Shown piece after piece: positions 1-27,098 of a stretch of DNA of 32,981 bases. Source of the stretch: Ilumatobacteraceae bacterium (lineage in GTDB: Bacteria > Actinomycetota > Acidimicrobiia > Acidimicrobiales > Ilumatobacteraceae); assembly GCA_017853385.1 (NCBI GenBank), contig JAFMJR010000012.1, forward strand, positions 1-32,981. The letters are read 5' to 3'. Position numbers and translations under genes: made by a program. Within the stretch, counting starts at the first letter, position 1. Each line of letters starts with the position of its first letter. The notes under the pieces are model-generated. The model ran no database searches. It saw only the letters and a program-made list of their open reading frames with translations, and was not told the DNA's origin.

Positions 1-41
1 AACTTCGACTCGGGTAAGTAATCCAACGTAGTTAAGTTACG

Positions 42-77
42 AAAAGGCCCCCAGCTGAAAAGCTGGGGGCCTTTTTT
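42..77. terminator. Two-way intrinsic terminator
   Basis: A perfect 15-pair stem (42-56 with 61-75) closes a GAAA tetraloop at 57-60. The GC core is flanked by A4 on the left and T6 on the right (72-77), so both strands give a hairpin followed by a U-run. On the minus strand it lies just beyond the livF stop and would end the ctaA-liv transcript. On the plus strand it would end whatever gene lies to the left of the window. Confidence 0.9.
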
Positions 78-122: not shown

Positions 123-860
123 TCAGCCGCCGGTCATTTTGGCAAGCGTGCCAAGATAAAGCTTGATCACATTTGGGTCTTCAAGTAATTGCCTTCCCGT
201 GCCGGTGTAAGCGTTTTTACCTTGATCAAGCACATACCCACGATCAGTTACCTGCAAGCAACGACGAGCGTTTTGCTCAACCATCAATATGGCGATGCCC
301 TCGGCATTGATGCGCTTGCATTGAATGAATACTTCATCTTGAAGCGCTGGAGAAAGTCCTGCGCTCGGTTCGTCGAGAAGCAACAGTTTAGGTTCCATCA
401 TCAGCGCGCGACCCATGGCAACCATCTGACGTTCGCCACCCGAAAGAGAGCCTGCGCGCTGCTGAGCACGCTCTCGCAGTTTTGGAAACAAGGAAGTTAC
501 ATATTCAAATCGTTCGTTGAACACTGAAGGCTTAAGGAAACAACCCATCTCCAAATTCTCGGAAACGGTGAGGCTTTGAAACACGTTTTGTGTTTGAGGA
601 ACATAACCAACGCCTTGTTCAACAAGCTCGTGAGCCTTGCGACCGGTGATATCACTGCCGAGGAAACTCACGCTTCCGCTGCGGACGCCGCATTGGCCAA
701 GAATCGCCTTTAACACAGTCGACTTACCGGCTCCGTTTGGACCGATGACTCCTACGAACTCGCCCTCTCGAACTTCAATGTTGCATCCATTGAGAATGTT
801 GACTTCAGGAATGTAACCAGCGACCAATTCATCGACAACAAGAACACGATTGTCTGACAC
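123..860 (-). CDS. livF: Branched-chain amino acid ABC transporter ATPase LivF
   Basis: Second ATPase subunit of a LivHMGF-type importer. It hydrolyses ATP in the cytoplasm as a heterodimer with LivG, driving uptake of branched-chain or other small amino acids or amides. The 245-residue protein has the Walker A motif GPNGAGKST at 40-48, signature LSGGERQ at 139-145, Walker B LLLLDEP at 159-165, and VEQNA in place of the H-loop histidine, as is usual in LivF. Its length matches the family. The start is GTG, sharing one base with the livG stop (TAGTG), with GAAGG upstream as a ribosome site, so it is translationally coupled. It is the last gene of the run and is followed by the terminator at 42-77. 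The substrate cannot be read from the ATPase. Confidence 0.93.
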   Translation of the reverse strand: MSDNRVLVVDELVAGYIPEVNILNGCNIEVREGEFVGVIGPNGAGKSTVLKAILGQCGVRSGSVSFLGSDITGRKAHELVEQGVGYVPQTQNVFQSLTVSENLEMGCFLKPSVFNERFEYVTSLFPKLRERAQQRAGSLSGGERQMVAMGRALMMEPKLLLLDEPSAGLSPALQDEVFIQCKRINAEGIAILMVEQNARRCLQVTDRGYVLDQGKNAYTGTGRQLLEDPNVIKLYLGTLAKMTGG

Positions 861-1738
861 TATGCACCTTCGCCTTCTAGTAGCGATTTACCTTGATGCG
901 AACCAAGGTACGCCTCGATTACTGCCGGGTTTGCCGAAATCTGATCTGGCGTTCCTTCAGCAATGATTTTTCCTTCAGCCATTACGACTACCCAATCGGA
1001 AATGTCATGCACCATGTCCATGTCGTGTTCAACGAACAAAACGGTCATGCCGTCGTCACGGAGGCCACGAATGTGCTCATTAAGACTTTGTTTCAAGGCA
1101 GGGTTAACACCCGCCATCGGCTCATCCAACATGACTAACCGAGGATTAGTCATCAGGGCTCGCGCCATTTCGAGCAACTTGCGCTGACCACCTGACAACG
1201 TGCCTGCATATTGGTCGCGCATGTGATCCAGTTTGAACCTCTTTAACAACTCATCTGCACGTCGCTCAATGATTGCTTCCTGTTTGCGGTATCTAAATGG
1301 AAGTAAACCATTCCACCACTTTTCACCAGCCTGGTGAGTAGCACCAAGTTTCATGTTTTCGATGACCGAAAGTTTGGTCAAACTCTTGGTCAACTGAAAC
1401 GTGCGCACCATACCCAGACTTGCTGTCTTGTGCGCGACGACTTTCTTGAGACTTTTGCCATCAAACATCCACTCACCGTTATCCGGAGCGTCGAACCCTG
1501 TAAGCAAATTGAACAATGTGGTCTTACCTGCACCATTTGGTCCAATCAAGGCGGTAATTGAACCGCGCTGAATTTCTAAATGGTCTACATCTACAGCAGT
1601 CACGCCTCCGAAGTTTCGTTTTACCTTCTCTGCATGCAAAATCGGATCTGGCTTAGCGACACCTGGTGATGCCTGAACCGAAGCAAGCGCCGCTCGTGCA
1701 CGAACAGCGAGTTCTGAATAACTGCGCTCAGCGTCCAT
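860..1738 (-). CDS. livG: Branched-chain amino acid ABC transporter ATPase LivG
   Basis: First ATPase subunit of the LivHMGF importer. Counting from the ATG at 1738 (292 residues), Walker A GPNGAGKTT is at 66-74, signature LSGGQRK at 181-187, Walker B RLVMLDEP at 200-207 and the H-loop histidine, in VEHDMD, at 238. The frame stays open to a GTG at 1771 (303 residues). I prefer 1738 because it is an ATG with GGAAGAGATGG upstream and overlaps livM by only 11 bases instead of 44. The first 35 or so residues before the ABC domain are an extension of no clear function. It is coupled to livM upstream and livF downstream. Confidence 0.92.
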   Translation of the reverse strand: MDAERSYSELAVRARAALASVQASPGVAKPDPILHAEKVKRNFGGVTAVDVDHLEIQRGSITALIGPNGAGKTTLFNLLTGFDAPDNGEWMFDGKSLKKVVAHKTASLGMVRTFQLTKSLTKLSVIENMKLGATHQAGEKWWNGLLPFRYRKQEAIIERRADELLKRFKLDHMRDQYAGTLSGGQRKLLEMARALMTNPRLVMLDEPMAGVNPALKQSLNEHIRGLRDDGMTVLFVEHDMDMVHDISDWVVVMAEGKIIAEGTPDQISANPAVIEAYLGSHQGKSLLEGEGA

Positions 1739-2732
1739 CAAGTGCCATCTCTTCCTTGCTTCCAAATACACCTTGAGGCCTAAAAGTCATCAACAGCATA
1801 AGACCAAGCCCAATGAGCATGTAGTTGACAGGACCCACTTGAGCTTTTTGAATGATTCCGAAACCAAAGATCTCAAACGGTCGATCTTTCGTGAGCTCAC
1901 GCAAGAAGTTGTCACTAAACACGTACAGTCCCCAGAACATCATCGGTCCGATTACCGATCCGCGAACTTTTGCTACTCCACCAAGCACAAGCGCTGTGAG
2001 CACGTAGAACGTTACATCGCGGCTGTAATTGTCGGGCTGAACCGACCCTCGGTCAAGTGCAAAAATCATTCCCGAAAACATTCCAACCACACCACCAATG
2101 ATTAGTGATTGCATTTTGTAGCTGTATACGTTTTTCCCAAGGCTGCGAACGGCATCCTCATCTTCGCGAATGGCTTTCACCACTCTTCCCCATGGACTCT
2201 TCATGAGCATGTAAACAAGGAATGAGAAGAAGGCAACGAGAGTCCAACCAACGATCATCGTCCAAAGTGAATAGCCGCTGTACTGAAAAGGCCGAATTCC
2301 GTATTGAGCGCCGGGATCAAACGGGCTGAGGTTTCTAAATGACGTACTAAAGCTGTTGATGCCGTCGCTACCGCCAAAATATTGCTTGAATCGCACGGAC
2401 CGAACAACAAGCCGCACGATTTCTGCTGTAGCAATGGTGACAATTGCCAAATAGTCAGCTCTCAGACGAAGTGTTGGAATACCAACAAGCAAACCGAGGA
2501 TGATGACAAGGGCAAGTGCAATAAGAATGCCCCACCACATCCCTACTCCAAAATATTGAGAAGTCATGCCAAGTCCGTATGCGCCACAGGCCATAAACGC
2601 TGACTGTCCAAAGTTAAGAAGACCCGTATAGCCAAATTGAATATTGAGACCGATTGCTGCGAGAGCGAAATACGCAGCATCGATGCCAAAAAATGCTGCA
2701 ACGGTATTCTCAAGAATTTTGATTATGTCCAC
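1728..2732 (-). CDS. livM: Branched-chain amino acid ABC transporter permease LivM
   Basis: Membrane permease subunit of 334 residues that forms the translocation pore together with LivH. The family signature is clear: GLNIQFGYTGLLNFGQSAFM around 28-47 and LRLRADYLAIVTIATAEIVR at 88-107, the latter being the coupling region that contacts the ATPases. Many hydrophobic helices are visible. The protein ends in MTFRPQGVFGSKEE, matching the typical LivM C-terminus. It starts at an ATG two bases after the livH stop, and its 3' end overlaps livG. The length is a little above the usual 300 or so residues. No odd features. Confidence 0.92.
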   Translation of the reverse strand: MDIIKILENTVAAFFGIDAAYFALAAIGLNIQFGYTGLLNFGQSAFMACGAYGLGMTSQYFGVGMWWGILIALALVIILGLLVGIPTLRLRADYLAIVTIATAEIVRLVVRSVRFKQYFGGSDGINSFSTSFRNLSPFDPGAQYGIRPFQYSGYSLWTMIVGWTLVAFFSFLVYMLMKSPWGRVVKAIREDEDAVRSLGKNVYSYKMQSLIIGGVVGMFSGMIFALDRGSVQPDNYSRDVTFYVLTALVLGGVAKVRGSVIGPMMFWGLYVFSDNFLRELTKDRPFEIFGFGIIQKAQVGPVNYMLIGLGLMLLMTFRPQGVFGSKEEMALDGR

Positions 2733-2734
2733 AA

Positions 2735-4060
2735 TCAGCCCACTCTCTGCTTACGGCCGAGTATTCCTTGTGGCCTCAGGACCAAAACGACGATGAGAAT
2801 TAATAGCGCTGGCGCATTTTTTAATTCGGCTGGTACCACTAGCGAGGCCAATTCAACGAGGAGGCCAACTAGGAAACCGCCAACCAACGCTCCGTAGGCC
2901 GAACCAAGACCGCCAAGCGTGATTCCTGCAAACATCAAGAAAATAAGACCAGATCCCATTTCAAAACCAACTTGTTCATCAAGACCACGAAACAAGCCAC
3001 CCATTGCAGCTAACGCGCCACCAGCGAACCAAACAATACGAATGATTTTCTGAGTATCGATGCCGGTCGATGACGCCAATGATGGATTGTCTGAAACTGC
3101 GCGAATGGCCTTACCTGTTCGAGAGCGCTGTAAATAAGCCGCGACGCCAAGTAACACCGCGAGCGAAATGATCGTTGTCGTTAAATCTCGCATGGTGATA
3201 CTTACGGGACCAAAAGACTTCGCAACTTGCAAACTGAAATCATCTAGAGGGCGTGTACGGCCACCAAATTGATACAAATACATATTTCGCAACATGATTG
3301 AGAGACCAACTGATACCACGAGTTGCGAAATCAGACCGATTCCCCGCTTGCGCAATTTTGCGAAGATAAGGCCATTCATCGCCAAGCCAAAAACACCTCC
3401 AAGAGCGATGACCAGTGGACCGGCTATCAGCAATGGAACGCCAAGCAGCACATTGAACCAAAAAGCCATCATTCCACCAAATGTCACCATTTCACCGTGT
3501 GCAAAATTGGTTAAACCAGTTGTTCCGAAAATAAGTGACAAACCAACTGAGCAAATGGCGATGATCAAACCAAGCCGAACGCCATCGACCAAACGCTGGG
3601 CAATTCGCTCTGCCAAACTCGCTCCAGAATCGCCGGTTGATCCAGCAAAGAACGTCACACGCTTTTGATTAGTAGTGAATGCATCCTTAACAATGTTGAC
3701 AACTGTTTTGGTTCCTTCAACCAGTGTTACACCAGAAGGCAACGAAGCAACGTCAAGTGTGACTACATAGTCATCTTTAGCGGGCACTGCAATGGTTGCA
3801 GCTCCAGTTGCATCAGTAACCCCTTCGCCAACAGCAACTCCGGCCGGAGTGGTTATCGCAATTTTTACACCAGCAACGGGTTTCTTTTCTGCAACACCAT
3901 TGTTGTTTGTTTGATTAGCAACCGAAACGATGATCGAATAGTCGCTGTCTAGGGCATGAACCGCTGCAGGTGCAGCAAGAGCAACCAACACACCGAGCAA
4001 TACAAACATTGCCCTCATGGCTGCTAGGCAGCGAGATCTCTTTTTTTGCCCAATAGTCAC
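2735..4060 (-). CDS. livH: LivH-type ABC permease with N-terminal secreted Ig-like domain
   Basis: Permease subunit of the LivHMGF importer. The C-terminal part, from about residue 150, is a standard LivH of roughly 290 residues, with GLSLIFGTTGLTNFAHGEMV at 173-192 and VLRPQGILG near the end. The front is unusual. Residues 15-36 look like a signal peptide or extra helix, with a possible signal-peptidase site after AVHA. Residues 39 to about 135 are a soluble, beta-rich stretch (PVAGVKIAITTPAG, then GVTDATGAATIAVPAKDDY) that resembles carboxypeptidase-regulatory or Cna-B type Ig folds. E. coli LivH is about 308 residues; this one is 441. The start is GTG at 4060 with GGGGAA upstream; ATG at 4018 would still keep the signal peptide. 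It lies 23 bases after ctaA. Confidence 0.88.
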   Translation of the reverse strand: MTIGQKKRSRCLAAMRAMFVLLGVLVALAAPAAVHALDSDYSIIVSVANQTNNNGVAEKKPVAGVKIAITTPAGVAVGEGVTDATGAATIAVPAKDDYVVTLDVASLPSGVTLVEGTKTVVNIVKDAFTTNQKRVTFFAGSTGDSGASLAERIAQRLVDGVRLGLIIAICSVGLSLIFGTTGLTNFAHGEMVTFGGMMAFWFNVLLGVPLLIAGPLVIALGGVFGLAMNGLIFAKLRKRGIGLISQLVVSVGLSIMLRNMYLYQFGGRTRPLDDFSLQVAKSFGPVSITMRDLTTTIISLAVLLGVAAYLQRSRTGKAIRAVSDNPSLASSTGIDTQKIIRIVWFAGGALAAMGGLFRGLDEQVGFEMGSGLIFLMFAGITLGGLGSAYGALVGGFLVGLLVELASLVVPAELKNAPALLILIVVLVLRPQGILGRKQRVG

Positions 4061-4083: not shown

Positions 4084-4968
4084 CTAGTCAAGCACAGCCA
4101 GGGTGCTTGTAGGAAGAAAAACTGAAAAAGCCGCCAAAAATACAGCCACCGATAAGCCGACATGAACTGCAACCAGCTGTGCCGGAACACCAGCGAAATA
4201 CTGCACATAACCTATGAATCCCTGTACTAACAAAAGTCCGATTAAACGCATCACAGCGGGTCCCTCTTCTATCCAACGAGATGATGAGCGACGAACACGT
4301 ATGGCGTACACAACCGAAAGCAAAACGGTAAGCCACACGGCTAGTGAATGAATTTGGGTAGCAAATCTCACCGAAATGTCGAGTCGCGTAGCTAATTCCG
4401 AGCCCGAATGCGGACCAGCACCGGTAACTACAGTCCCTAGAAGAACCGCTAGGGACATCGCAACAAAAATTAGCCGTCGAAGCCAGACATCGTGATGAGA
4501 AGTTGATTTTGGACCATGTATCAACGTTTCTACCCTTTTGAGAAGGACAAACGCTGACGAAACCAACAGCACGGAAACGAGAAAGTGGGCCATATTGGAC
4601 CACGGATTGAGGCCAGTCAGTACTACATAGGCACCCAAAATGACTTGGGCAAGCACGCCTACAACAAGTAAAAGCGCATTACGGACGAGGCGCGCAATGC
4701 GCGGACGCATCACTAGCGCACCTGAGACGGCAACCACTACTGAAAGCGCAACGAAACCCGTGAAAAGGCGGTTTACCTGTTCGATTGCAGCATGACCTGA
4801 CGAGACATCGACAAACTTCTCATTGTTGCAATTTGGCCAATCTGAGCAACCAAGCCCCGAGCCAGTAAGGCGCACCAATGAGCCGGTGACAATGATGGTG
4901 TACAAAGCAAAAAAGGCAGTTCGTGCCACCTGTTGATATCGCTTTGCGGACATCCAGGAAACAGCCAT
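4084..4968 (-). CDS. ctaA: Heme A synthase (CtaA/Cox15)
   Basis: Integral membrane enzyme that oxidises heme O to heme A for aa3-type cytochrome oxidase. The 294-residue protein has the family start TGSLVRLTGSGLGCSDWPNC (28-47) with a cysteine pair, C41 and C47. It then has E63-x-x-N66-R67, where many homologues have E-x-x-H-R; the Asn form is, to my knowledge, common in actinobacteria. Likely heme histidines are H128, H207 and H269, with GAGPHSG around H187. About eight hydrophobic helices are visible. It has a possible leaderless promoter (-10 box at 4976-4981). It sits just upstream of livH on the same strand, with a 23-base gap, so it probably shares the transcript, although the two functions are not obviously linked. 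Confidence 0.92.
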   Translation of the reverse strand: MAVSWMSAKRYQQVARTAFFALYTIIVTGSLVRLTGSGLGCSDWPNCNNEKFVDVSSGHAAIEQVNRLFTGFVALSVVVAVSGALVMRPRIARLVRNALLLVVGVLAQVILGAYVVLTGLNPWSNMAHFLVSVLLVSSAFVLLKRVETLIHGPKSTSHHDVWLRRLIFVAMSLAVLLGTVVTGAGPHSGSELATRLDISVRFATQIHSLAVWLTVLLSVVYAIRVRRSSSRWIEEGPAVMRLIGLLLVQGFIGYVQYFAGVPAQLVAVHVGLSVAVFLAAFSVFLPTSTLAVLD

Positions 4969-16658: not shown

Positions 16659-17399
16659 CTAAGCAGAAAACCCCGCATACATACTGCTGAGTCCAGCGAA
16701 AGTCAGCAGTACAAGAACAACCATTCGAAAGCGATCTGGGTGTACGCGAAGGCGCACTTTTCTTCCGATATTGACACCGATGGCCATACTCGGAAGTGAT
16801 ACTAAAGCGAGCAGTAGGTCGCTTTGAAAAATTTCACCAAATGCAGCAAACAAGATAAGTCCATAAATTCCACTAATCAAAAAAATCATATTCAACGTGG
16901 ACCGAAAAACATGTGGTGGACTCTTTCTCGCCTGTAATGCGAAAACCAGAGGTGGACCGTTCGTTGAAGTTGACGTGAGCAGGAATCCGCTCAGTACACC
17001 CATTGCCCAGTCCAAACTGATATGAGCATGTGAAAGGTCGCGTCCTTTAGCTAGTAGCAATACCCCGAGCAAAACTCCGAAGCCCAAAACTACTTTCAAA
17101 ATATTCTGATCGGCATACAGGAATGCAATGAGTCCAAATGGTGCTCCGATAAACGAGGCACAAAGAAATCGCTTTACCTGTTGAGCATCTGAATCTGCCC
17201 GCAAATCTCGATATTGGTAGATGTTGTTAGCGGTACCAATTAGCGAGGCCAAAATGACTGCCTCATGAAGACCAATAATCTGCATTAAAACGGGAACAGT
17301 GAGCAACGCAAAGCCAAAACCAACCACGGATTGCGTAAATGCCGTCAGCAATACAACAACACATACTGCAAGAATTTCGAGCGCTGAATTATCGATCAT
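16659..17399 (-). CDS. TSUP (TauE/SafE) family membrane permease
   Basis: Integral membrane protein of 246 residues with about eight hydrophobic helices and the twin TSUP repeats. The first has TAFTQSVVGFGFALLTVPVL (residues 19-38). The second has GVLSGFLLTSTSTNGPPLVF in the middle of the chain. Family members move sulfite, sulfonates, sulfoacetate or other small organic anions. The gene overlaps the class III aminotransferase by four bases (ATGA), so the two are co-translated; the permease may import the substrate, or export a product, of the catabolic genes next door. That link is inference from position only. Confidence 0.85.
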   Translation of the reverse strand: MIDNSALEILAVCVVVLLTAFTQSVVGFGFALLTVPVLMQIIGLHEAVILASLIGTANNIYQYRDLRADSDAQQVKRFLCASFIGAPFGLIAFLYADQNILKVVLGFGVLLGVLLLAKGRDLSHAHISLDWAMGVLSGFLLTSTSTNGPPLVFALQARKSPPHVFRSTLNMIFLISGIYGLILFAAFGEIFQSDLLLALVSLPSMAIGVNIGRKVRLRVHPDRFRMVVLVLLTFAGLSSMYAGFSA

Positions 17400-18742
17400 T
17401 GCATCAAATGCCCAACGGCATCTTCAAAAATCTTTGTATGCGCATCAACATCTTCCACACTATGAAACGGTGTCATCAGAGCCATATTGTGAAACGGCGT
17501 GAGTAAGACTCCTCGGTTGAGCGCATATAGATGCATAAAAGATTCCAATTCGTCATTGACCGTCGCCGCAGCTTCCGCACCATTCACAGGATGATCGGCG
17601 AACCAATACTCGGATCGGCATCCAAGCTGTTGAACAGTCCATGGAAGTTGGAAGTCGTTAATTGTTGACTGAACACCTTCACTCCAACGAGTTGCTAATG
17701 GAATTGCAATATCGAAGTCTTCTTGCCTAAGGGCATTCGACAAGGTTGCTTTCATTGCCGCAGCCGAAAGAGCGCTTCCACTTAAGGTTCCACCAATTCC
17801 AGAAACATCAAGATCGTGGCCATGCATGAGTTGCTCCACATTTCTTGCTACCTCGGCAGACATTCCGTATGCAGCAACAGGGATACCACCGCCAATCGTC
17901 TTTCCGATTACCAACATGTCAGGCTCGATTCCCCACATGCGAGACGCACCATGGGGTCCGGCACAAATGGTGTGTGTTTCGTCGAGAATCAGCAGAACCC
18001 CATATTTACGAGTGAGTTCACGAACACCTTCTAGGTAACCATCTAACGGCAGAACAATACCGATATTGGTAAGAGCTGGTTCCATGAGTACACATGCGAT
18101 GTCGCCTCGTTTGAGCGCGGCTTCCATAGCTTGTAAATCGTTGTACGGAACAGCGACAGTAGTTGTTGCTGGATTGACCTGTGGGCCAATCGCCCCAGGA
18201 CGACTCACTGTGTTGCCATGAGCATCCAAAATCACGAGCGTTTCATCGACAGTGCCGTGATAGCACCAGTCGTTAACAATAATTTTTGGCTTACCCATCA
18301 ATTGTCGTGCAAGACGCAAACTAAACCTGTTCGCATCTGTTGCACTTAAACAAAATTGCCACTTCTCCAATCCGAAACGCTCTCGGAGATGGTCGGCCAC
18401 CCACGCAACGTCTGTTGAGGGCAACATTGTGGTGAATCCGCTGTTCGCCTGAGCAAATATCGCATCATTGATAGCCGTATTTGCATGTCCAGTCATTGCA
18501 CCCGTGTCTCCCAGACAAAAATCGATGTACTCATTGCCATCGATGTCACGAATTTTTCCGCCTTGTGCAGATTCGGCAACAACTGGAAAAGGCCCTGCCC
18601 AGCGTTTCATCCAAGGCATTGGTACGCCTGCAAGCAAAGACTTGCTTGCAGTTTTCGATGACTGCTGAGATTTTGGGTGAGATTCGATGAAACGAGAAAT
18701 CTCAATTGCCATCAGATCCTGAACTCGTTGACTTCCAATCAT
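17396..18742 (-). CDS. Class III PLP aminotransferase, glutamate-1-semialdehyde aminomutase-like
   Basis: PLP enzyme of fold type I, 448 residues. The PLP lysine is K281 in VIGKTIGGGIPVAAYG. D254 in LILDETHT should hold the pyridine nitrogen, and WCYHG (159-163) is the ring-stacking region. GNEYIDFCLGDTGAMTGHA (69-87) and YHGTVDETL resemble glutamate-1-semialdehyde 2,1-aminomutase (HemL), but CLSATDAN stands where HemL usually has a SG-T-A pattern, and the context is catabolic. It is more likely a transaminase for an amino acid or amine released by the neighbouring carbamoylases. The start is ATG at 18742; ATG at 18712 is possible. It is divergent from the M20 hydrolase with a 52-base gap. 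Confidence 0.83.
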   Translation of the reverse strand: MIGSQRVQDLMAIEISRFIESHPKSQQSSKTASKSLLAGVPMPWMKRWAGPFPVVAESAQGGKIRDIDGNEYIDFCLGDTGAMTGHANTAINDAIFAQANSGFTTMLPSTDVAWVADHLRERFGLEKWQFCLSATDANRFSLRLARQLMGKPKIIVNDWCYHGTVDETLVILDAHGNTVSRPGAIGPQVNPATTTVAVPYNDLQAMEAALKRGDIACVLMEPALTNIGIVLPLDGYLEGVRELTRKYGVLLILDETHTICAGPHGASRMWGIEPDMLVIGKTIGGGIPVAAYGMSAEVARNVEQLMHGHDLDVSGIGGTLSGSALSAAAMKATLSNALRQEDFDIAIPLATRWSEGVQSTINDFQLPWTVQQLGCRSEYWFADHPVNGAEAAATVNDELESFMHLYALNRGVLLTPFHNMALMTPFHSVEDVDAHTKIFEDAVGHLMQ

Positions 18743-18782
18743 GTTGCCATTCTTATTGATGAATAGGTCAAGTAACTGCTTC

Positions 18783-18788
18783 TACACT
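18783..18788 (+). promoter_or_regulatory. Putative -10 box of the catabolic gene run
   Basis: TACACT followed by 6 bases and then the ATG at 18795. No Shine-Dalgarno sequence is present. This supports the shorter start of the M20 hydrolase and a leaderless mRNA. Confidence 0.4.
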
Positions 18789-18794
18789 GGCCTC

Positions 18795-20030
18795 ATGGAA
18801 AAGTTGAAGATAAACGGCAGCCGATTGATGGACCGAATCATGTCACTAGCCGAGATATCTCCAATAGAAGGTGGCGGCAACTGTCGACTTGCCCTGACCG
18901 ATGACGATAAGGCTGGACGCGACCTCGTTGTCACCTGGATGAAAGATCTTGGAATGGAAATATCCATCGACGTTGTGGGCAATATCGTGGGCACATGGAA
19001 CGTCGGATCAGGTTCTCCTGTAATGACTGGCTCTCACATCGACACAGTCCGAACCGGTGGAAAGTACGACGGAAACTACGGCGTTTTAGCTGGTCTCGAA
19101 GTAATTGAAACACTGCAACAATCAGGAATTAAGCCAAGTCGTCCGCTTGCAGTCGGAGTATTCACTGACGAAGAGGGTGCACGATTCGCGCCCGACATGC
19201 TCGGATCGTTGGTGTATGTAGGAGGTCTATCGGTTGAAGATGCACTCGATATCCGTGCAATTGATGGTCCGCGACTTGGAGATGAACTTAATCGAATTGG
19301 ATACGCAGGAAACACTCCGTGCCCTCAGCAGGCACCCCATGCATTTGTTGAATTGCACATAGAACAAGGTCCGTTACTTGAAGCAAATGGAATTCGAATC
19401 GGAGCAGTGACTGGAGTCCAGGGCATCTCGTGGCAAGAATTAACTATCACGGGACAAAGTAATCACGCGGGAACCACTCCAATGCGCCTACGCAAAGACC
19501 CTGTCGTAGTTGCCGCCGAAGTTGCAAAATTCCTTCATGATCTAGCAATTCGTTATGGCGGCGACCAGGTATGCACGGTTGGGAAGATTGATGTTCATCC
19601 AAATCTCATCAACGTTGTTGCAGCAAAGGTAACGATGACTCTTGATGTAAGAAATACCGACGAATCTTTACTTCAAGCAGCAGAGAAAGAAATTGCATCT
19701 TTTATCGTAGAAATTGCTAATCGGGAAAAGGTCATAACAAGTGTGCGAACGCTTGCTCGATTTGAGCCAGTGAAATTTGATCAACGCGTTATTGACATCG
19801 TGCATCATCATGCAACCGATCAGGGAAATTCGGTTCAGATGATGCCATCTGGTGCAGGTCATGACGCCCAGATGCTCGCTCGCGTCTGCCCCACCGCGAT
19901 GATTTTTACACAAAGCAAAGACGGCCTCAGCCATAATCCAGCTGAATACACATCTCCCGAGGATTTAGAAGCAGGAGCAAATATCTTGCTGCACACCATG
20001 TTGACGCTTACGTCTACGGAATTCGCATAG
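18795..20030 (+). CDS. M20 amidohydrolase: N-carbamoyl-L-amino acid hydrolase / allantoate amidohydrolase type
   Basis: Zinc-dependent cytosolic enzyme that removes a carbamoyl or ureido group, releasing CO2 and ammonia. From the ATG at 18795 it has 411 residues, the usual family length; the open frame reaches back to 18741, but those 18 residues are unlike the family. Metal ligands are H81 (TGSHIDT), D92 (YDGNYGV), E127 (TDEEGARF), H188 (ELHIEQGP) and H380 (GLSHNPAEYT). NHAGTTPMR (223-231) is the substrate-binding hinge of this subfamily. Substrates of relatives are N-carbamoyl-L-amino acids, beta-ureidopropionate, allantoate or ureidoglycine. First gene of the plus-strand run. Confidence 0.9.
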   Translation: MEKLKINGSRLMDRIMSLAEISPIEGGGNCRLALTDDDKAGRDLVVTWMKDLGMEISIDVVGNIVGTWNVGSGSPVMTGSHIDTVRTGGKYDGNYGVLAGLEVIETLQQSGIKPSRPLAVGVFTDEEGARFAPDMLGSLVYVGGLSVEDALDIRAIDGPRLGDELNRIGYAGNTPCPQQAPHAFVELHIEQGPLLEANGIRIGAVTGVQGISWQELTITGQSNHAGTTPMRLRKDPVVVAAEVAKFLHDLAIRYGGDQVCTVGKIDVHPNLINVVAAKVTMTLDVRNTDESLLQAAEKEIASFIVEIANREKVITSVRTLARFEPVKFDQRVIDIVHHHATDQGNSVQMMPSGAGHDAQMLARVCPTAMIFTQSKDGLSHNPAEYTSPEDLEAGANILLHTMLTLTSTEFA

Positions 20031-20056
20031 TTCTATCCGGATTTCAATAAGCCAAT

Positions 20057-20062
20057 TAGGCT
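20057..20062 (+). promoter_or_regulatory. Putative -10 box of the D-carbamoylase gene
   Basis: TAGGCT, 7 bases before the ATG at 20070, again with no ribosome site. It would be a second start point inside the catabolic run. Confidence 0.35.
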
Positions 20063-20069
20063 TAAGTTC

Positions 20070-20996
20070 ATGGCACGAATTATCACTGTTGCGGCTGCAC
20101 AGCTTGGACCTATTCAACGATCTGATTCGCGAGCATCATGCGTTGCGCGGATGATTGTTCTACTACAGGAGGCAGCAAAGCAAGGATGCGACCTCGTTGT
20201 ATTTCCAGAACTGGCGCTCACCACATTTTTCCCGCGATGGTTCGTTGAAGATATTCATGACGCAGATCATTGGTACGAGAAGTCGATGCCAAACGCCGAC
20301 ACTCAGCCCCTGTTTGACGAAGCAAAACGATTACACATTGGTTTCTCTCTTGGTTACGCAGAAATCACCGAACATGGAGAGCGTTTCAATACACAGATTC
20401 TCGTGGAAAAAGATGGTCGAACAGTTGCAAAATATCGCAAGGTGCATATTCCAGGACACGAAAAGCATGAACCCGATCGTCCTTTTCAACATGCAGAGCG
20501 TTACTACTTCACTCCAAGCAATGAGGGTTTTGGTGTATGGAAAGCTTTCGGAGGACGTGTTGGAATGATGATTTGCAATGATCGACGATGGCCCGAAACA
20601 TATCGTGAAATGGGACTTCAAGGTGTCGAAATGATTTTGTGCGGATACAACACTCCATTGCATTACGTGCCGGATCCGTCGCAAGATGCTCTTGCTGGAT
20701 TCCACAACGCATTAGTTATGCAAAGTGGCGCATACCAAAACGGAACTTTTGTAGTTGGTGTGGCCAAGGGTGGGATAGAAGAGGGCGTGGACAGCCTTGC
20801 CGATTCATGCATCATCGGTCCGAGCGGCGAAATTCTGGCCAAAACCGAGACCAATGGGGATGAAATTGCTGTTGCCACATGCGATTTGGATTGGTGTTAC
20901 CAATACAAAAATACGCTTTTTGATTTCGACCGGTATCGCCGACCAGAGGTGTACCAGCGAATTACTGGGCAGCGTGGAGCAATTGTCGCGGAGTGA
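20070..20996 (+). CDS. N-carbamoyl-D-amino acid hydrolase-like protein (nitrilase superfamily)
   Basis: Cytosolic thiol amidase of 308 residues. The catalytic triad is E47 in VFPELALTTFFPRW, K124 in KYRKVHIPGH and C169 in MMICNDRRWPETY. These segments, plus NTQILVEKDG and CGYNTPLHY, closely follow the Agrobacterium D-carbamoylase as I remember it, including its length (about 304). It should hydrolyse an N-carbamoyl amino acid or related ureido acid to the free amino acid, CO2 and ammonia. It stands 39 bases after the M20 hydrolase, so two unrelated carbamoylases sit side by side. Beta-ureidopropionase is the main alternative reading. Confidence 0.88.
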   Translation: MARIITVAAAQLGPIQRSDSRASCVARMIVLLQEAAKQGCDLVVFPELALTTFFPRWFVEDIHDADHWYEKSMPNADTQPLFDEAKRLHIGFSLGYAEITEHGERFNTQILVEKDGRTVAKYRKVHIPGHEKHEPDRPFQHAERYYFTPSNEGFGVWKAFGGRVGMMICNDRRWPETYREMGLQGVEMILCGYNTPLHYVPDPSQDALAGFHNALVMQSGAYQNGTFVVGVAKGGIEEGVDSLADSCIIGPSGEILAKTETNGDEIAVATCDLDWCYQYKNTLFDFDRYRRPEVYQRITGQRGAIVAE

Positions 20997-21032
20997 TTTT
21001 TAACATTCTGTAAATCCCAAACCCTTTAGGTG

Positions 21033-21038
21033 TATGGT
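21033..21038 (+). promoter_or_regulatory. Putative -10 box before the fused molybdenum hydroxylase
   Basis: TATGGT, 28 bases before the ATG at 21067. A transcript starting near 21045 would carry a short leader with GGGGG at 21054-21058, 8 bases before that ATG. Unlike its neighbours this gene appears to use a real ribosome site. Confidence 0.3.
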
Positions 21039-21066
21039 AAAACCAGACCGAACGGGGGAAATTGGT

Positions 21067-23658
21067 ATGTCTGCCACTGAAACATCTGTGCATTTTGTCG
21101 CCAATGGGGTACCTGTTTCAGTTCGCTCCCACCACCCTCACCTACTCTCTGCCCTTCGCGATGAATTGAACATCACCTCTCCAAAGGACGGATGCTCGCC
21201 GAGTGGTCAATGTGGTTGTTGCACTGTATTAATCAATGGCAAAGCCGTGGTTAGCTGTCAAACCAGTTTGGACAAAGTCGCAGGCGCTGAGGTCGTGACA
21301 CTCGAAGGGATAAGCGACGAAGAACGTAAAAAGTATTCCGATGCATTCGCCGCGTGTGGGGGTTTGCAATGTGGTTTCTGCATTCCGGGCATCGTGGTCC
21401 GCGCTAAGGCGCAAGTTGACAAAAAAGGTAAAAACCTCAAACGTGAAGACATGGCTCGGCACTTGGGAGCCAATCTCTGCAGATGCACTGGTTATGTGAA
21501 AATTCTCGATGCGATTGAAATGGTCGCTCAAGATATACAGCCTGTGCTTCCATCGGTTGGAGGGATCGGGTCACGAAGCATGAAATACGAAGCGCATGAA
21601 TTAGCGCTCGGAGATCGTGGATACGTTGACGATATTCGAATAGCAGGCATGCAACATGCTGCCCTGCACCTCACATCCCATGCTCGTGCAAAGGTTCTTT
21701 CAATTGATACCTCAGCTGCATTGGCCGCACCAGGAGTGACTGCGGTTTTTACTGCAGCTGACATTCCTGGTGAATTAATGGTTGGAATCATTTACAAAGA
21801 TTGGCCAGTGATGATTCCAGTTGGTGGTTACACCTCATACGCAGGAGACGTTCTTGCTGTTGTGGTTGCTACAGACCGACTCGCTGCTCGCGATGCCGCA
21901 CAGTTAGTGAAGGTTGAGTATGAAGTATTAAAGCCTGTCACCGATCCGCATTACGCGAAGACAGACGAACAGATTGCTGTATGGAAGACGACATCCAATG
22001 TGTTGAGTACGAGCGCATATACCCGTGGCGATGTTGAAGATGCATTTTCTAGATGTTCCCATATTGTCGAGCAAGATTTTTCAACTCAACGTATTGAACA
22101 TGCATTCCTAGAACCAGAAAGCACACTCGCTGTCCCATCCGAAGACGGCAATCACCTGCATGTCTATTCAGGTGGTCAAGGTATTTGGGACGATCGCAAT
22201 GACATTGCAAAATTGCTCAATATTTCAAACGACCAAGTGACAGTCGAACTCATAACAAATGGTGGCGCTTTTGGAGGCAAAGAAGACATGAGCAATCAAG
22301 CTCATGCTTCTCTTGCGGCTTGGTTATTGAAAAAACCAGTGAAATGCACGCTTTCCCGCGAAGAGAGCTTCCTGATGCATGCAAAGCGTCACCCAATTGA
22401 GATGTCGTACAAAATCGGCTGTGATGTTGATGGAAAGCTCGTCGCATTGCATGTACGAGCTATTGGTGACAGCGGAGCTTATGCAAGCGTTGGCATGAAA
22501 GTGCTCGAACGCATGGCAGGTCACGCAAGTGGACCATATTTCATTCCGAACATCGACGTTGAGGCTGTTGCTGTGAGGACAAATAACCCGGTGTGCGGAG
22601 CATTCCGAGGATTTGGCGCCAACCAAGCTCAGTTTGCGATGGAAGGTGTTCTTGATCGCCTAGCCCACCAAGTTGGCATTAGCGGTTGGGAAATTCGCCG
22701 ACGCAATGTGATCATGCCTGGAATGGTGTGGGGACCGGGTCAAATTATGGACGATGGTTGTCTCGGGGCTTCAAAGTGCCTTGATGCAATCAAACCCGCT
22801 TATGACGATGCGCTTGCATCTGGATTCGCTGTAGGTCTTGGTCTTGGTCTAAAGAACAGCGGACTAGGTAATGGTTTCAAAGAAATAACTCGAGCAGTTG
22901 TTCACTTTAAACATGATGGACGCATAGAGGTACGACACGGTTGGACCGAAATGGGTCAGGGCATCAATACCGTTGCCCAACAGGTAGTTGTGGAAGAACT
23001 CGGTGTAGATGGTTCCCTAATTGACGTCATAGTTGACACCACTCGAGAGCTTGGTCTTGGTCAAACAACTGGATCAAGAGGAACTCTGATGGGAGCGGGT
23101 GCCGTAAAGGCCGCATGCGAGACAGCTCGTGCTGCCAACTGCGAAAAGGGTGTAGATCACCTTGGGGAATACCGAGTTGATTGGACCACCAAACTCGGCG
23201 AACCGGGTGTAGAGAATCCAATTATCCACTCCACTTTTGGTTACGCAGCTCAAATGGTGATGGTGAATAAAGAAACAGGAAAGATTGATCACGTTGTCGC
23301 TGCACACGATGTTGGTAGAGCCGTCAATCCGCAACTCTGCGAAGGACAAATTGAGGGATCTGTGCACATGGGACTTGGTTATGCCCTCAGCGAAGATTTC
23401 CCTAGCGACCCAGAGACTGGTTTCCCAACGAACAAGACGCTTCGAAGCCTCGGCATTATTCGCGCTAAAGACGTACCGAAAATTTCTGTGCAACTTGTTG
23501 AGTCTGCGCAACCTAATTCACCATATGGAATTAAAGGTGTTGGCGAAATTGGATTGGTTCCAACAGCAGGCGCTGTTGCTGCCGCCCTGTTTGCTTACGA
23601 CGGAGTTTGGCGATCAAAATTACCGATGAAGCGTGATGATTCGAGCACCGAAGAATAA
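21067..23658 (+). CDS. Fused [2Fe-2S]-molybdopterin hydroxylase, selenium-dependent xanthine dehydrogenase type
   Basis: Xanthine dehydrogenase-family enzyme of 863 residues that hydroxylates an N-heterocycle at molybdenum and passes electrons through two [2Fe-2S] clusters. The Fe-S domain (1 to about 160) has C43, C49, C52, C64 and then C102, C105, C138, C140. The molybdopterin domain follows, with GGAFGGKEDMS, GAFRGFGANQ and the catalytic Glu at 827 in KGVGEIG. The fused order, with no FAD domain, and motifs such as AAHDVGRAVNP and the FAYDGVWRSKLPMK end match the TIGR03311-like selenium-dependent group (also E. coli XdhD). I chose the ATG at 21067 for its GGGGG ribosome site; the frame is open to 21034. 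Whether selenium is present cannot be seen. It is followed by ssnA with one shared base (TAATG). Confidence 0.88.
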   Translation: MSATETSVHFVANGVPVSVRSHHPHLLSALRDELNITSPKDGCSPSGQCGCCTVLINGKAVVSCQTSLDKVAGAEVVTLEGISDEERKKYSDAFAACGGLQCGFCIPGIVVRAKAQVDKKGKNLKREDMARHLGANLCRCTGYVKILDAIEMVAQDIQPVLPSVGGIGSRSMKYEAHELALGDRGYVDDIRIAGMQHAALHLTSHARAKVLSIDTSAALAAPGVTAVFTAADIPGELMVGIIYKDWPVMIPVGGYTSYAGDVLAVVVATDRLAARDAAQLVKVEYEVLKPVTDPHYAKTDEQIAVWKTTSNVLSTSAYTRGDVEDAFSRCSHIVEQDFSTQRIEHAFLEPESTLAVPSEDGNHLHVYSGGQGIWDDRNDIAKLLNISNDQVTVELITNGGAFGGKEDMSNQAHASLAAWLLKKPVKCTLSREESFLMHAKRHPIEMSYKIGCDVDGKLVALHVRAIGDSGAYASVGMKVLERMAGHASGPYFIPNIDVEAVAVRTNNPVCGAFRGFGANQAQFAMEGVLDRLAHQVGISGWEIRRRNVIMPGMVWGPGQIMDDGCLGASKCLDAIKPAYDDALASGFAVGLGLGLKNSGLGNGFKEITRAVVHFKHDGRIEVRHGWTEMGQGINTVAQQVVVEELGVDGSLIDVIVDTTRELGLGQTTGSRGTLMGAGAVKAACETARAANCEKGVDHLGEYRVDWTTKLGEPGVENPIIHSTFGYAAQMVMVNKETGKIDHVVAAHDVGRAVNPQLCEGQIEGSVHMGLGYALSEDFPSDPETGFPTNKTLRSLGIIRAKDVPKISVQLVESAQPNSPYGIKGVGEIGLVPTAGAVAAALFAYDGVWRSKLPMKRDDSSTEE

Positions 23659-24731
23659 TGCCTAATCACGTCACGCCCGGATTGGTCTGTGCACATCACC
23701 ATTTGTACAGTTCCATAGCTCGCGGAATGCCAGCGCCTCCAGCGACGCCTGATTCATTTATCAGCGTCCTTGAAAATATTTGGTGGCGTTTAGATGCAGC
23801 ATTAGATCTTGACATGATCTATTGGTCTGCAGCACTTGGCGCTGCTGAAGCTTTGTCAAGCGGTACAACATGCATTATCGATCACCATGAATCACCACTA
23901 GCGATTGAAGGATCACTTTCCACAATCGCAAAAGCATGTCGCGATGTAGGTGTTCGCGTGAATGCAAGCTATGGCGTGACCGATCGTTGGACAAATGACG
24001 GCGAAATGCTTAGCCAAGTTGATCCTCAATCAACGATGACACACTCAGCTCGACGCGGCCTTGACGAATGTCTTTCATTCATCAAATCTGGAGGTCGAGG
24101 CATGGTTGGCGTTCACGCAGCATTTACATGTTCAGATGAAACTCTTGCAGAAGCCGCCGCCCTTTCCGAATCGCTTGGAGTTGGAGTCCATATTCATGTA
24201 GCGGAGGGTCCGGACGACATCCATGCTGGTGAACGTTTGCAGCACTTAGCTAAAGATAATTGGTTGCTCATTCATGGTGTGCATTTGCAAAGCCAGCTTG
24301 CTGGACGACTGGTTCATAATCCTCGTTCAAATATGAACAATTCCGTTGGCTATGCCTACCCGGCGACGAAACCGAACACCATTTTGCTTGGTACTGACGG
24401 AATCGGGGCGAACATGATGGAAGAAGCTCGACTTGCATATGTTCGATTACGAGAAAGCGATATCTCTCAAACACCAGACACAATTGCCCAATGGATTGAT
24501 AATGCCTACGAAGTCTTTCCTGAAGGGCTCAATGATCGTGTGACTTGGTCTTATGACCACATGGATAGCCCATGGCATACGGCGTTCACTACAAGCATGA
24601 ACGTTGAGTCAGTAGAAATCGATGGTGAACGTGTGTACGAAAATGGCTCTATAACCCGCATGGATATTTCCGAAATTCGAGCAAAAGCTCAAGAACAATC
24701 ACAACGTCTATTTGAAAGGCTTGCATCATGA
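23658..24731 (+). CDS. ssnA: SsnA-like amidohydrolase lacking the N-terminal sandwich segment
   Basis: Metal-dependent hydrolase or deaminase of the amidohydrolase superfamily, 357 residues. SsnA-like motifs: [14 protein letters not shown] (6-19), [18 protein letters not shown] (33-50), [20 protein letters not shown] (220-232) and GTDGIG (245-250). Metal residues H13, H15, H178/H180, H206 and D247 are all kept. SsnA and most relatives have about 55 residues before the HxH motif (half of a beta-sandwich); here the chain begins 12 residues before it. The shortening is real, because an in-frame TGA lies 21 bases upstream and the start overlaps the hydroxylase stop. SsnA genes usually accompany selenium-type molybdenum hydroxylases, as here. 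The substrate is unknown, possibly an aminated or cyclic purine derivative. Confidence 0.83.
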
Positions 24732-25768
24732 GCATCCCGAAATCAGCAATTAACCCAGTTACGGGCAAAGCACGCATGGCGATCTATTTACAAGATGCTC
24801 ATCCGATTCGCGAAGGGATGGCATTTGCGCAATATGCAGAGTCAAAAGGCTTCGAAGCAGTTTGGCAGGCAGAAAGTCGCCTGGTTCGCGAGGCAACGGT
24901 ACCTATGGCGGCGTTTGCATCTGTAACCAACAACATCAAGGTTGGCTCTGGTGTTGTGGATTGTTGGAGTAGAAACCCTGCTCGTTTAGCTGCAACATTT
25001 TCCACTCTCGACGACTTGGCACCCGGTCGAGTAATTTTAGGAATTGGCGCATGGTGGGATCCCTTGGCGCAAAAAGTGGGAATATCACGCGCAAAACCAC
25101 TAAGAGCAATGCGTGAAATTGTCACTGCTGTACGCGCTCTTTTGCATAACGAAAATGTCACGTTCAATGGCGAATTTGTGCATTTTGATGGAATTGAATT
25201 GGACTATGTGTATCAAGATCGCAGGCCAAAAGATGTTCCCATCTACATTGGCGCAACTGGTATGCAAATGATGGAGCTCACGGGTGAAATTGCAGATGGC
25301 GTTGTCTTGAATTATCTCGTGTCTCCCGATTACAACAAGCAAGCACTTGCTGCCTTACAAGCCGGAGCGGATAAAGCGGGAAGGAAGATTGAAGATATCG
25401 ACCGTCCGCAACTCGTTGTTTGCAGCGTGCACGAAGATAGACAAACCGCTCTCGATATGGCACGCGAAATGGTCACACAATATTTGGGTCAGCAACCACA
25501 CATCATGAAGGCCTCTGGAGTTCCACAGTCATTACTTGACAAAGTTGGCGAAGTACTTACATGGCCCGCAACTCATGAGCAAGTAACCGCGGCTTCGAAA
25601 CTTGTGCCTGACGAAATCGTTCAAATGCTCACCGCAAGTGGCACTCCACAAGAAGCTCGCGAGCAAGTGAGACACTATTTGAACAACGGCGCTACGTGCC
25701 CAATTTTGTATCCACTTGGTGATGTACATGCCATGATCGATGCCTTTGCTGACTGGGATGGCAATTAG
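24728..25768 (+). CDS. LLM-class flavin/F420-dependent oxidoreductase
   Basis: Luciferase-like TIM-barrel protein of 346 residues. Family marks include [17 protein letters not shown] (36-52), [38 protein letters not shown] and [19 protein letters not shown], similar to methylene-tetrahydromethanopterin reductase-like F420 enzymes. The reaction could be an F420-linked redox step or an FMN monooxygenation such as ring opening; the sequence does not say which. It overlaps ssnA by four bases (ATGA), and its TAG stop directly abuts the ATG of the FAD subunit, so it is firmly within the same operon. Placing an LLM enzyme between SsnA and molybdenum hydroxylase subunits is unusual. Confidence 0.87.
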
Positions 25769-26614
25769 ATGCCGATGATTATTGCAACGAGCGTTGAATC
25801 AGCAGTTTCTGCACTGCGCGATCACCCAGATGCCCGCATCATTCAGGGCGGCACAGATTTGATGGTGGAGATCAATTTCAACCATGTCAAGCCATCAACG
25901 ATGATCAGCATTAGAGACATTGAGTCGTTAAAGAAAATTACCCAGCCGAGCAACGGGATCATTCGAATTGGGTCAGGTGTTCCCTATTCACAGCTTGAGC
26001 AGGAGCCAATACTGTCTGTGGTTCCTGCCTTGGCCCAAGCCTCTCGCACAGTCGGATCACCACAAATTCGTGCTGCTGGAACACTTGGTGGGAATTTGGG
26101 TACATGCTCGCCTGCTGGAGACACCCTGCCTGTGATGTTTGCACTCGATGCAACAGTTCACCTTCAGTCACCCTCCGATGCGCGCGAGGTTGCGATTCAC
26201 GACTTCATGGTTGGAGTAAAAAAGAACATACGACGACATGACGAAATCATCACTGCAGTGGATTTCCCGATTGTTCGTGGCTGGCAGGGCTACTCCAAGG
26301 TTGGAGTACGAAACGCCATGGTCATATCAGTTGCATCTGCATGCTTAGTTGCCGATCACAATGAAGGAATTGTTCGTCTTGCCCTTGGTTCTGTGGGGCC
26401 AACAATTATTCGGTGCAGAGAGGCTGAGAGCTGGCTTCATTCAGTCACTTCACTTCAACAGGGTGAGAAAATTTCTTCTGACATTGCAAAGGAATTTGGT
26501 CATCGAGCAGCGAAGGAGAGTTCACCAATAGATGACCATCGCAGTACCGCCGAATACCGCAGACATGCAATCAGTGTTTTAGCTTCACGACTTCTAACAA
26601 AGGCGTATTCATGA
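25769..26614 (+). CDS. Molybdenum hydroxylase FAD-binding subunit
   Basis: FAD subunit of a xanthine dehydrogenase/CO dehydrogenase-type complex, 281 residues, near the usual length. FAD-binding motifs are IIQGGTDLMVEIN (24-36) and GSPQIRAAGTLGGNLGTCSP (96-115). It takes electrons from the [2Fe-2S] subunit and passes them to NAD or another acceptor. It is encoded directly before the small Fe-S and large molybdopterin subunits, overlapping the former by four bases. It is the only FAD subunit in the window, so it may also serve the fused hydroxylase encoded upstream, which has no FAD domain of its own (inference). Confidence 0.92.
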   Translation: MPMIIATSVESAVSALRDHPDARIIQGGTDLMVEINFNHVKPSTMISIRDIESLKKITQPSNGIIRIGSGVPYSQLEQEPILSVVPALAQASRTVGSPQIRAAGTLGGNLGTCSPAGDTLPVMFALDATVHLQSPSDAREVAIHDFMVGVKKNIRRHDEIITAVDFPIVRGWQGYSKVGVRNAMVISVASACLVADHNEGIVRLALGSVGPTIIRCREAESWLHSVTSLQQGEKISSDIAKEFGHRAAKESSPIDDHRSTAEYRRHAISVLASRLLTKAYS

Positions 26615-27096
26615 GTGACAACGAGTTTTACAACCTGCGTGTGAATGGAATGAGCCATCAGGTACAAGATTCTTGGGTCGGAGAAAGTTTGCTTTATGTG
26701 CTTCGCGAGCGCCTCGGACTCCCCGGCACCAAAGGTGCTTGCGAACAAGGTGAATGCGGAAGTTGCACAGTCTTGCTTAATGGAAATGCCGTATGTTCAT
26801 GTCTAGTGATGGCCGCAACTGCTGTAGATGCTGAGATTGTTACTGTTGAGGGCCTCACAACCGGAAACGAACTCACTGACGTTCAGCAATCCTTCGTGGA
26901 TCAAGGGGCTGTCCAGTGCGGATTTTGCACACCTGGCTTAATCGTTGCAGTGCACCACTTGCTAGATCACAATCCGCAACCTACAGAGTTTGAAATCAAG
27001 GAAGCAATTTCGGGAAATATCTGCAGATGCACTGGTTACGGTCGCATATTTGCAGCGGTTGAAGAAACCATCAAAATTCGTAATGGAGCCAAGTAA
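26611..27096 (+). CDS. Molybdenum hydroxylase [2Fe-2S] subunit
   Basis: Small iron-sulfur subunit of 161 residues, the standard length. Plant-type cluster ligands are C44, C49, C52 and C64 in CEQGECGSC...CSC. The second cluster uses C103, C106 (CGFCTPG), C138 and C140 (CRCTGY). It relays electrons from molybdenum to FAD. It overlaps the FAD subunit gene by four bases (ATGA) and ends two bases before the molybdopterin subunit gene. Spacing in the first cluster is the usual C-x4-C, unlike the C-x5-C of the fused hydroxylase. Confidence 0.95.
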   Translation: MSDNEFYNLRVNGMSHQVQDSWVGESLLYVLRERLGLPGTKGACEQGECGSCTVLLNGNAVCSCLVMAATAVDAEIVTVEGLTTGNELTDVQQSFVDQGAVQCGFCTPGLIVAVHHLLDHNPQPTEFEIKEAISGNICRCTGYGRIFAAVEETIKIRNGAK

Positions 27097-27098
27097 TC

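Follow-up and report, generated by a model that had tools for sequence, protein, structure and literature searches.

The window analyzed here comprises 32,981 nucleotides and is the whole of contig C119 from an Ilumatobacteraceae bacterium whose genome is incomplete (1.5 Mb in 122 contigs, 90% complete). At its left end lies an ABC importer operon on the minus strand (Table 1), in which the livH-type open reading frame (2735-4060, minus strand) encodes a single 441-residue protein that starts at a GTG codon, immediately 5' of which is a GGGGAA stretch. Residues 158-426 match Pfam BPD_transp_2 (E 3.7e-37; 128.4 bits against a cut-off of 26.8), livM, livG, and livF are in the same cluster, and the 3' end of a cognate Peripla_BP_6 binding-protein gene can be recognized in the window by comparison with relatives, all as expected of a LivH/HAAT-type permease. 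The score against the E. coli-type LivH equivalog (NCBIfam PRK10740) was only 97.6 bits where the cut-off is 379, so the protein was filed as LivH-type, outside that equivalog. Assignment as the UrtB urea permease (TIGR03409) was also rejected (127.3 bits; cut-off, 250.3); the NCBIfam score is nearer UrtB (127 bits) than LivH (98), with both far under their cut-offs. The only other match to the fusion protein in its own genome is livM. Upstream, a COX15/CtaA-like gene (4084-4968, minus strand) has its stop 23 nt before the livH GTG, and such a neighbor likewise precedes livH in many Ilumatobacteraceae loci. Farther along the window (17396-29366) is a gene set of purine- or amide-degradation type, which includes two molybdopterin dehydrogenases (xanthine-dehydrogenase-like), an FAD subunit, an M20 amidohydrolase, a CN-hydrolase, an amidohydrolase, and a class-III aminotransferase.

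Table 1. Features of the importer locus, in window coordinates.
Feature	Position	Strand	Basis
Signal peptide, residues 1-38	3947..4060	-	Model helix 5-28; A-x-A type site in 106/127 homologues
Outer prealbumin/CnaB-like beta-sandwich domain (predicted), residues 40-140	3641..3943	-	Model, profiles, codon comparison, structure alignment
Linker, residues 141-148	3617..3640	-	Model confidence 69; neither helix nor strand
LivH-type permease core, residues 149-441 and stop	2735..3616	-	BPD_transp_2 and model
livM permease	1728..2732	-	Pfam/NCBIfam
livG ATPase	860..1771	-	Pfam/NCBIfam
livF ATPase	123..860	-	Pfam/NCBIfam
Permuted-type substrate-binding lipoprotein gene, 3' end (NFDSGK and stop), convergent	1..21	+	Bases 1-24 identical to L084, L085, L088, L089, L090
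Terminator-like hairpin between convergent genes	41..76		Folding, -31.7 kcal/mol (+) and -29.1 kcal/mol (-)

An AlphaFold2 model of the fusion protein (mean pLDDT 90.9, pTM 0.78), built from an alignment of 82 rows that remained when 115 LivH sequences were thinned at 85%, places a hydrophobic helix in the signal region, followed by eight strands (residues 41-53, 56-61, 66-70, 76-81, 87-92, 98-102, 120-123, and 132-139) that form a sandwich. Confidence in the domain is mostly 89-97, with lower values at 51-60 (78) and 111-120 (81); it falls to 69 in the linker block (141-150), and helices start at residue 149. When residues 37-144 were compared with solved structures by VIA-align, the best correspondences were to SdrD (10ps; Z 12.4, rmsd 2.6 over 97 residues) and CnaB2 (8bdw; Z 10.7, rmsd 2.9 over 92), with transthyretins and transthyretin-related proteins at Z about 9.5-9.8; the permease core aligned with BtuC (2qi9; Z 15.1, rmsd 4.8 over 249). 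A sequence-profile search of the PDB matched SdrD and a collagen adhesin. In Pfam, residues 56-123 gave matches to bMG3, CarboxypepD_reg, and SdrD_B that were weak and under cut-off. For CarboxypepD_reg (PF13620), the window protein reached 17.1 bits against a cut-off of 32.3, a value exceeded by two of the five fusion proteins scanned (L054, 39.7 bits; L077, 33.9 bits). Model, profiles, and structure alignment thus agree with the preliminary description, in which a signal-like helix and an Ig-, Cna-B-, or carboxypeptidase-regulatory-like fold preceded the LivH core, and the N-terminal domain is predicted to have a prealbumin/CnaB-like beta-sandwich topology.

The same description placed the domain outside the membrane, and two further observations point the same way. 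Of 127 fusion proteins, 106 have an A-x-A cleavage-type motif after the hydrophobic stretch; the remaining 21 have, by eye, mostly V-x-A or S-x-A type sites, and one of them (L029) was read at the wrong place. Positively charged loops after helices 210-238 and 290-312, together with the C terminus, all fall on one side, a charge pattern consistent with an outside N terminus. We consider it strongly supported that the signal peptide and beta-sandwich lie on the outside face, with a short linker leading on to the first membrane helix. In the domain, the columns of highest conservation (G74, G86, Y98, L107, P108, and F137) look structural rather than interface-like. Across residues 40-144 of the 82 rows, Lys, Asn, and His stay below 50% in every column, and the window's own domain has no His at all in that range. 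The isopeptide bond of CnaB domains needs conserved Lys and Asn; an isopeptide-stabilized CnaB domain was therefore ruled out.

It had been pointed out that the proposed fusion would be undermined if the frame ahead of the core were not conserved in relatives or not translated. In a codon-wise comparison with 10 relatives, the domain aligns in frame and without stops in all of them. For the seven closest relatives, dN was 0.11-0.27 for the domain and 0.06-0.08 for the core, and synonymous sites in the domain were saturated (pS 0.68-0.85). This codon pattern indicates that the domain frame is translated and under purifying selection, though less constrained than the core. A survey of the fusion across Actinomycetota, which the preliminary description had recommended, found it in 65 of 101 genomes of the same family, counting matches that span the N-terminal domain (query start at or before residue 72) into the core; one further family genome has the N-terminal fragment alone. 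With a 25-row profile, the fusion was present in 23 of 79 order, 29 of 119 class, and 24 of 198 phylum genomes, where the samples overlap and contig-edge fragments are excluded. Among the best 80 matches listed, fusion loci come from Ilumatobacteraceae, Planotetraspora, Microbispora, Nonomuraea, Blastococcus, Geodermatophilus, Pseudonocardia, Dactylosporangium, Cryobacterium, and Herbiconiux. The fusion therefore extends to many actinobacterial families besides this one. There is thus strong support for the outer domain as a conserved characteristic of a single actinobacterial LivH subfamily. We found no prior description of a LivH with such a domain in the open-licence literature.

In a tree of LivH cores (74 of 137 cores, after thinning at 80% identity), a single change divides the 65 domain-bearing rows from the 9 domain-less rows, so the domain likely had a single origin; the branch that unites all 65 has an SH-aLRT value of 5, and the tree contains long rows. 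The domain-less LivH of locus L064 (G391:C1) groups beside domain-bearing rows and has a signal-like segment directly before the core. It is perhaps a natural deletion of the domain. Its position in the clade implies that the domain is dispensable there. The LivH proteins of a group of genomes of about 1 Mb (f64, perhaps Actinomarinales-like) are 304-305 residues long and domain-less.

The preliminary description stated that no substrate-binding protein gene lies nearby, and this proved to be wrong. The first bases of the window read, on the plus strand, as the final six codons and the stop codon of a convergent binding-protein gene, and the first 24 match the 3' end of that gene at 24 of 24 positions in five relatives (Table 1). 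Because this end matches the gene of relatives, the binding-protein gene is present and is broken off by the contig end; the bacterium's own, incomplete genome yielded no further binding-protein copy. Same-genus relatives encode a PF13458 protein at the position matching the window's left edge, and the gene that follows livF in relatives encodes, convergently, a Peripla_BP_6 binding protein. When we examined the 67 of 139 distinct LivH loci that have at least 4.6 kb of downstream sequence, 53 of the 58 domain-bearing loci and 7 of the 9 domain-less ones had such a partner beside the operon, always convergent. The intergenic hairpin has a 16-bp stem and folding z scores of -8.1 (plus strand) and -7.4 (minus strand); a consensus terminator scan gave no report of it. 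A lipobox is present in 62 of 64 partners, and the two exceptions (L060 and L167) have a front end that is truncated or masked. Since the partner is already held at the membrane by lipid, preventing its diffusion would not be the domain's job, and a role of the domain in holding on to a binding protein that would otherwise diffuse freely was judged unlikely and rejected. Among solved structures, those nearest to the partner are of branched-chain amino-acid binding proteins, and the partner's NCBIfam scores are far under every cut-off. Going by these relationships, the substrate of the importer is likely to be amino acids.

In the relative G031, the partner lipoprotein (L084) opens with what is the C-terminal part of normal members (GMKGT...). 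Its residues 197-423 match Peripla_BP_6 positions 2-226, and against 4gnr its residues 196-428 align with 7-234 while residues 39-100 align, weakly (7.6 bits), with 248-306. As encoded, the protein aligns with normal members over 215-230 residues; reordered to the normal arrangement, it aligns with six normal members over 346-350 residues at 40-59% identity. A model of the permuted partner, built from 28 permuted rows, had a pLDDT of 91.2 and a pTM of 0.88, and its residues 175-418 superimposed on residues 1-241 of 3ip5 with Z 21.5 and an rmsd of 2.5 over 239 residues. Above our thresholds, and with binding proteins that have masked residues or a weak half excluded, 39 of 111 distinct binding proteins are permuted; the permuted alignment holds 28 rows (28 of the 39 after thinning at 93%, with the masked L096 taken out and L084 put in). 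Permuted loci include L084:3101-4417, L088-L091, L164, L128, L143, L153, L080, and L212. In an even phylum sample, the subfamily occurs in 42 of 296 genomes (E 1e-60 or better), and the permuted profile is found nearly end to end in 5 of those 42. The NFDSGK ending in the window belongs to the permuted form. Among same-genus relatives, the partner is permuted in G031, G085, G073, and G061 and of normal order in G047 and G005, whose LivH is more distant (43% identity). These data strongly support the conclusion that the partner in the window's lineage is circularly permuted. We found no earlier account of a permuted partner in the amino-acid-type family in the open-licence literature.

Permutation appears to have arisen repeatedly. 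On a binding-protein tree of 59 rows (from 111, after thinning at 80% identity), the permuted state needs five changes, four of which are forced by starred branches, and none of 200 bootstrap trees needed one change only. A single clade of all 15 permuted rows was rejected (p 5.9e-5), as was monophyly of the four late-break rows (p 4e-4); monophyly of the eleven other permuted rows was rejected less strongly (p 0.015). The constrained groups had been defined from an earlier first tree. Two break sites flank the DGNMGNALG loop, one on each side. It is well supported that normal and permuted orders interchanged at least four times, at two break sites. All permuted cases with LivH in view bear the outer domain, and so do most normal ones. 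We conjecture a link between the two features; that permutation shifted the lipid tether so that the binding protein fits the LivH platform, in one docking arrangement, seems unlikely on present evidence.

Docking or orienting the binding protein is the likeliest role that we infer for the domain. By analogy with the Ig-like P2 domain of MalF, we tentatively favor a LivHMGF-type (HAAT family) ABC importer, probably of amino acids, in which the permease's outer domain would form a platform next to the pore where the membrane-anchored binding protein is received and oriented, in the manner of MalF-P2 with MalE. The domain would set the height and angle of a lipoprotein that is already at the membrane rather than stop its diffusion, because the lipoprotein is membrane-held. 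Docking of a binding protein had been among the original suggestions, and it stands as a candidate role even though a coevolution test was negative: in a partial Mantel test that accounted for the other subunits, domain and binding-protein distances gave r -0.155 (p 0.97; 45 loci, coarse distances). The same test gave positive values for LivM (r 0.22) and for the cytoplasmic LivF (0.24) and thus lacks specificity. Docking is also weakened by the domain-less relatives, in which the convergent lipoprotein arrangement is kept (7 of 9), by the dispensability of the domain in L064, by the structural look of its most conserved columns, and by the low support for the branch that unites the domain-bearing rows.

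Ranking just behind docking, though doubtful in itself, is a role in biogenesis or stability, in which the signal peptide and domain would secure N-out insertion of LivH and stabilize LivH-LivM, with no direct part in delivery. This would fit the retention of the signal peptide in L064 despite loss of the domain, the lower conservation of the domain than of the core, and the missing domain-partner coevolution, and the LivM value was positive, though so was that of LivF. However, the related LivH proteins of 304-305 residues lack both signal peptide and domain, so insertion needs neither, and a constrained beta-sandwich exceeds the needs of insertion. The closest solved folds are adhesin and pilin domains, and CnaB/SdrD-B domains serve as adhesin stalks, which would suit a domain that binds a cell-wall polymer or surface protein and so holds or spaces the importer at a site in the envelope. 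Function is not shown by fold alone, however, there is one domain only, and it has no isopeptide residues; nor was a sorting or wall-binding motif seen, which speaks against the wall tethering proposed earlier and leaves envelope attachment improbable. More improbable still is a sensory or regulatory role, with the domain reporting on substrate status or binding a small ligand: small-molecule binding occurs among prealbumin-like folds, but this domain has no conserved polar pocket residues (K, N, and H columns are all below 50%). The similarity to transthyretin-related proteins (Z about 9.5-9.8) and the purine-degradation-like genes elsewhere in the window would bring to mind an enzymatic domain of the hydroxyisourate hydrolase type. 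5-Hydroxyisourate hydrolase has catalytic His residues, and residues 40-144 of the window protein are His-free; we therefore ruled out this activity, whose likelihood is negligible.

The outer domain is a standard part of a widespread actinobacterial LivH subfamily, whereas E. coli LivH has none. Related bacteria offer natural importer pairs that differ in whether the domain is present and in whether the lipoprotein partner is normal or permuted, so that both the role of outer domains of importer permeases and the importance for transport of where a tethered binding protein is attached can be tested by comparison.

Extra N-terminal regions on this permease superfamily are not unique to the LivH fusion. 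In UrtB from Sinorhizobium meliloti pSymB (L208, 537 aa), of the same superfamily, a signal-like segment and an additional N-terminal region likewise precede the same core, but that region weakly resembles HEAT repeats (17.6 bits; cut-off, 27.7) and is not a beta-sandwich; a Klebsiella UrtB (308 aa) is without one. The domain shares its fold with CarboxypepD_reg, CnaB, and SdrD-B domains, with profile similarity from weak to above cut-off, but the known ones are found in adhesins, pilins, and receptors, and the LivH domain lacks isopeptide residues. MalF-P2 of the E. coli maltose importer is likewise an outer domain of an importer permease subunit, and it touches the binding protein MalE (PMC3150292); such contact is known for MalF-P2 and presumed here. 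MalF-P2 is inserted between membrane helices (residues 91-271) of a permease of another family (PMC3150292), whereas the LivH domain is N-terminal and led by a signal peptide. For the partner, the one natural permuted binding lipoprotein that we found described before in the open-licence literature is TpMglB-2 (Tp0684) of T. pallidum, which is described as a lipid-anchored ABC-importer binding protein in circularly permuted order, proposed as “Type Ic / Cluster Bc” (PMC4990184). Its authors suggest there that anchoring drove the permutation (PMC4990184), an idea about the attachment point that was drawn from a single lineage. TpMglB-2 belongs to a sugar-binding family, whereas the LivH partner is of amino-acid type, with two break sites and several origins; these repeated origins would be a new and stronger case than MglB-2.
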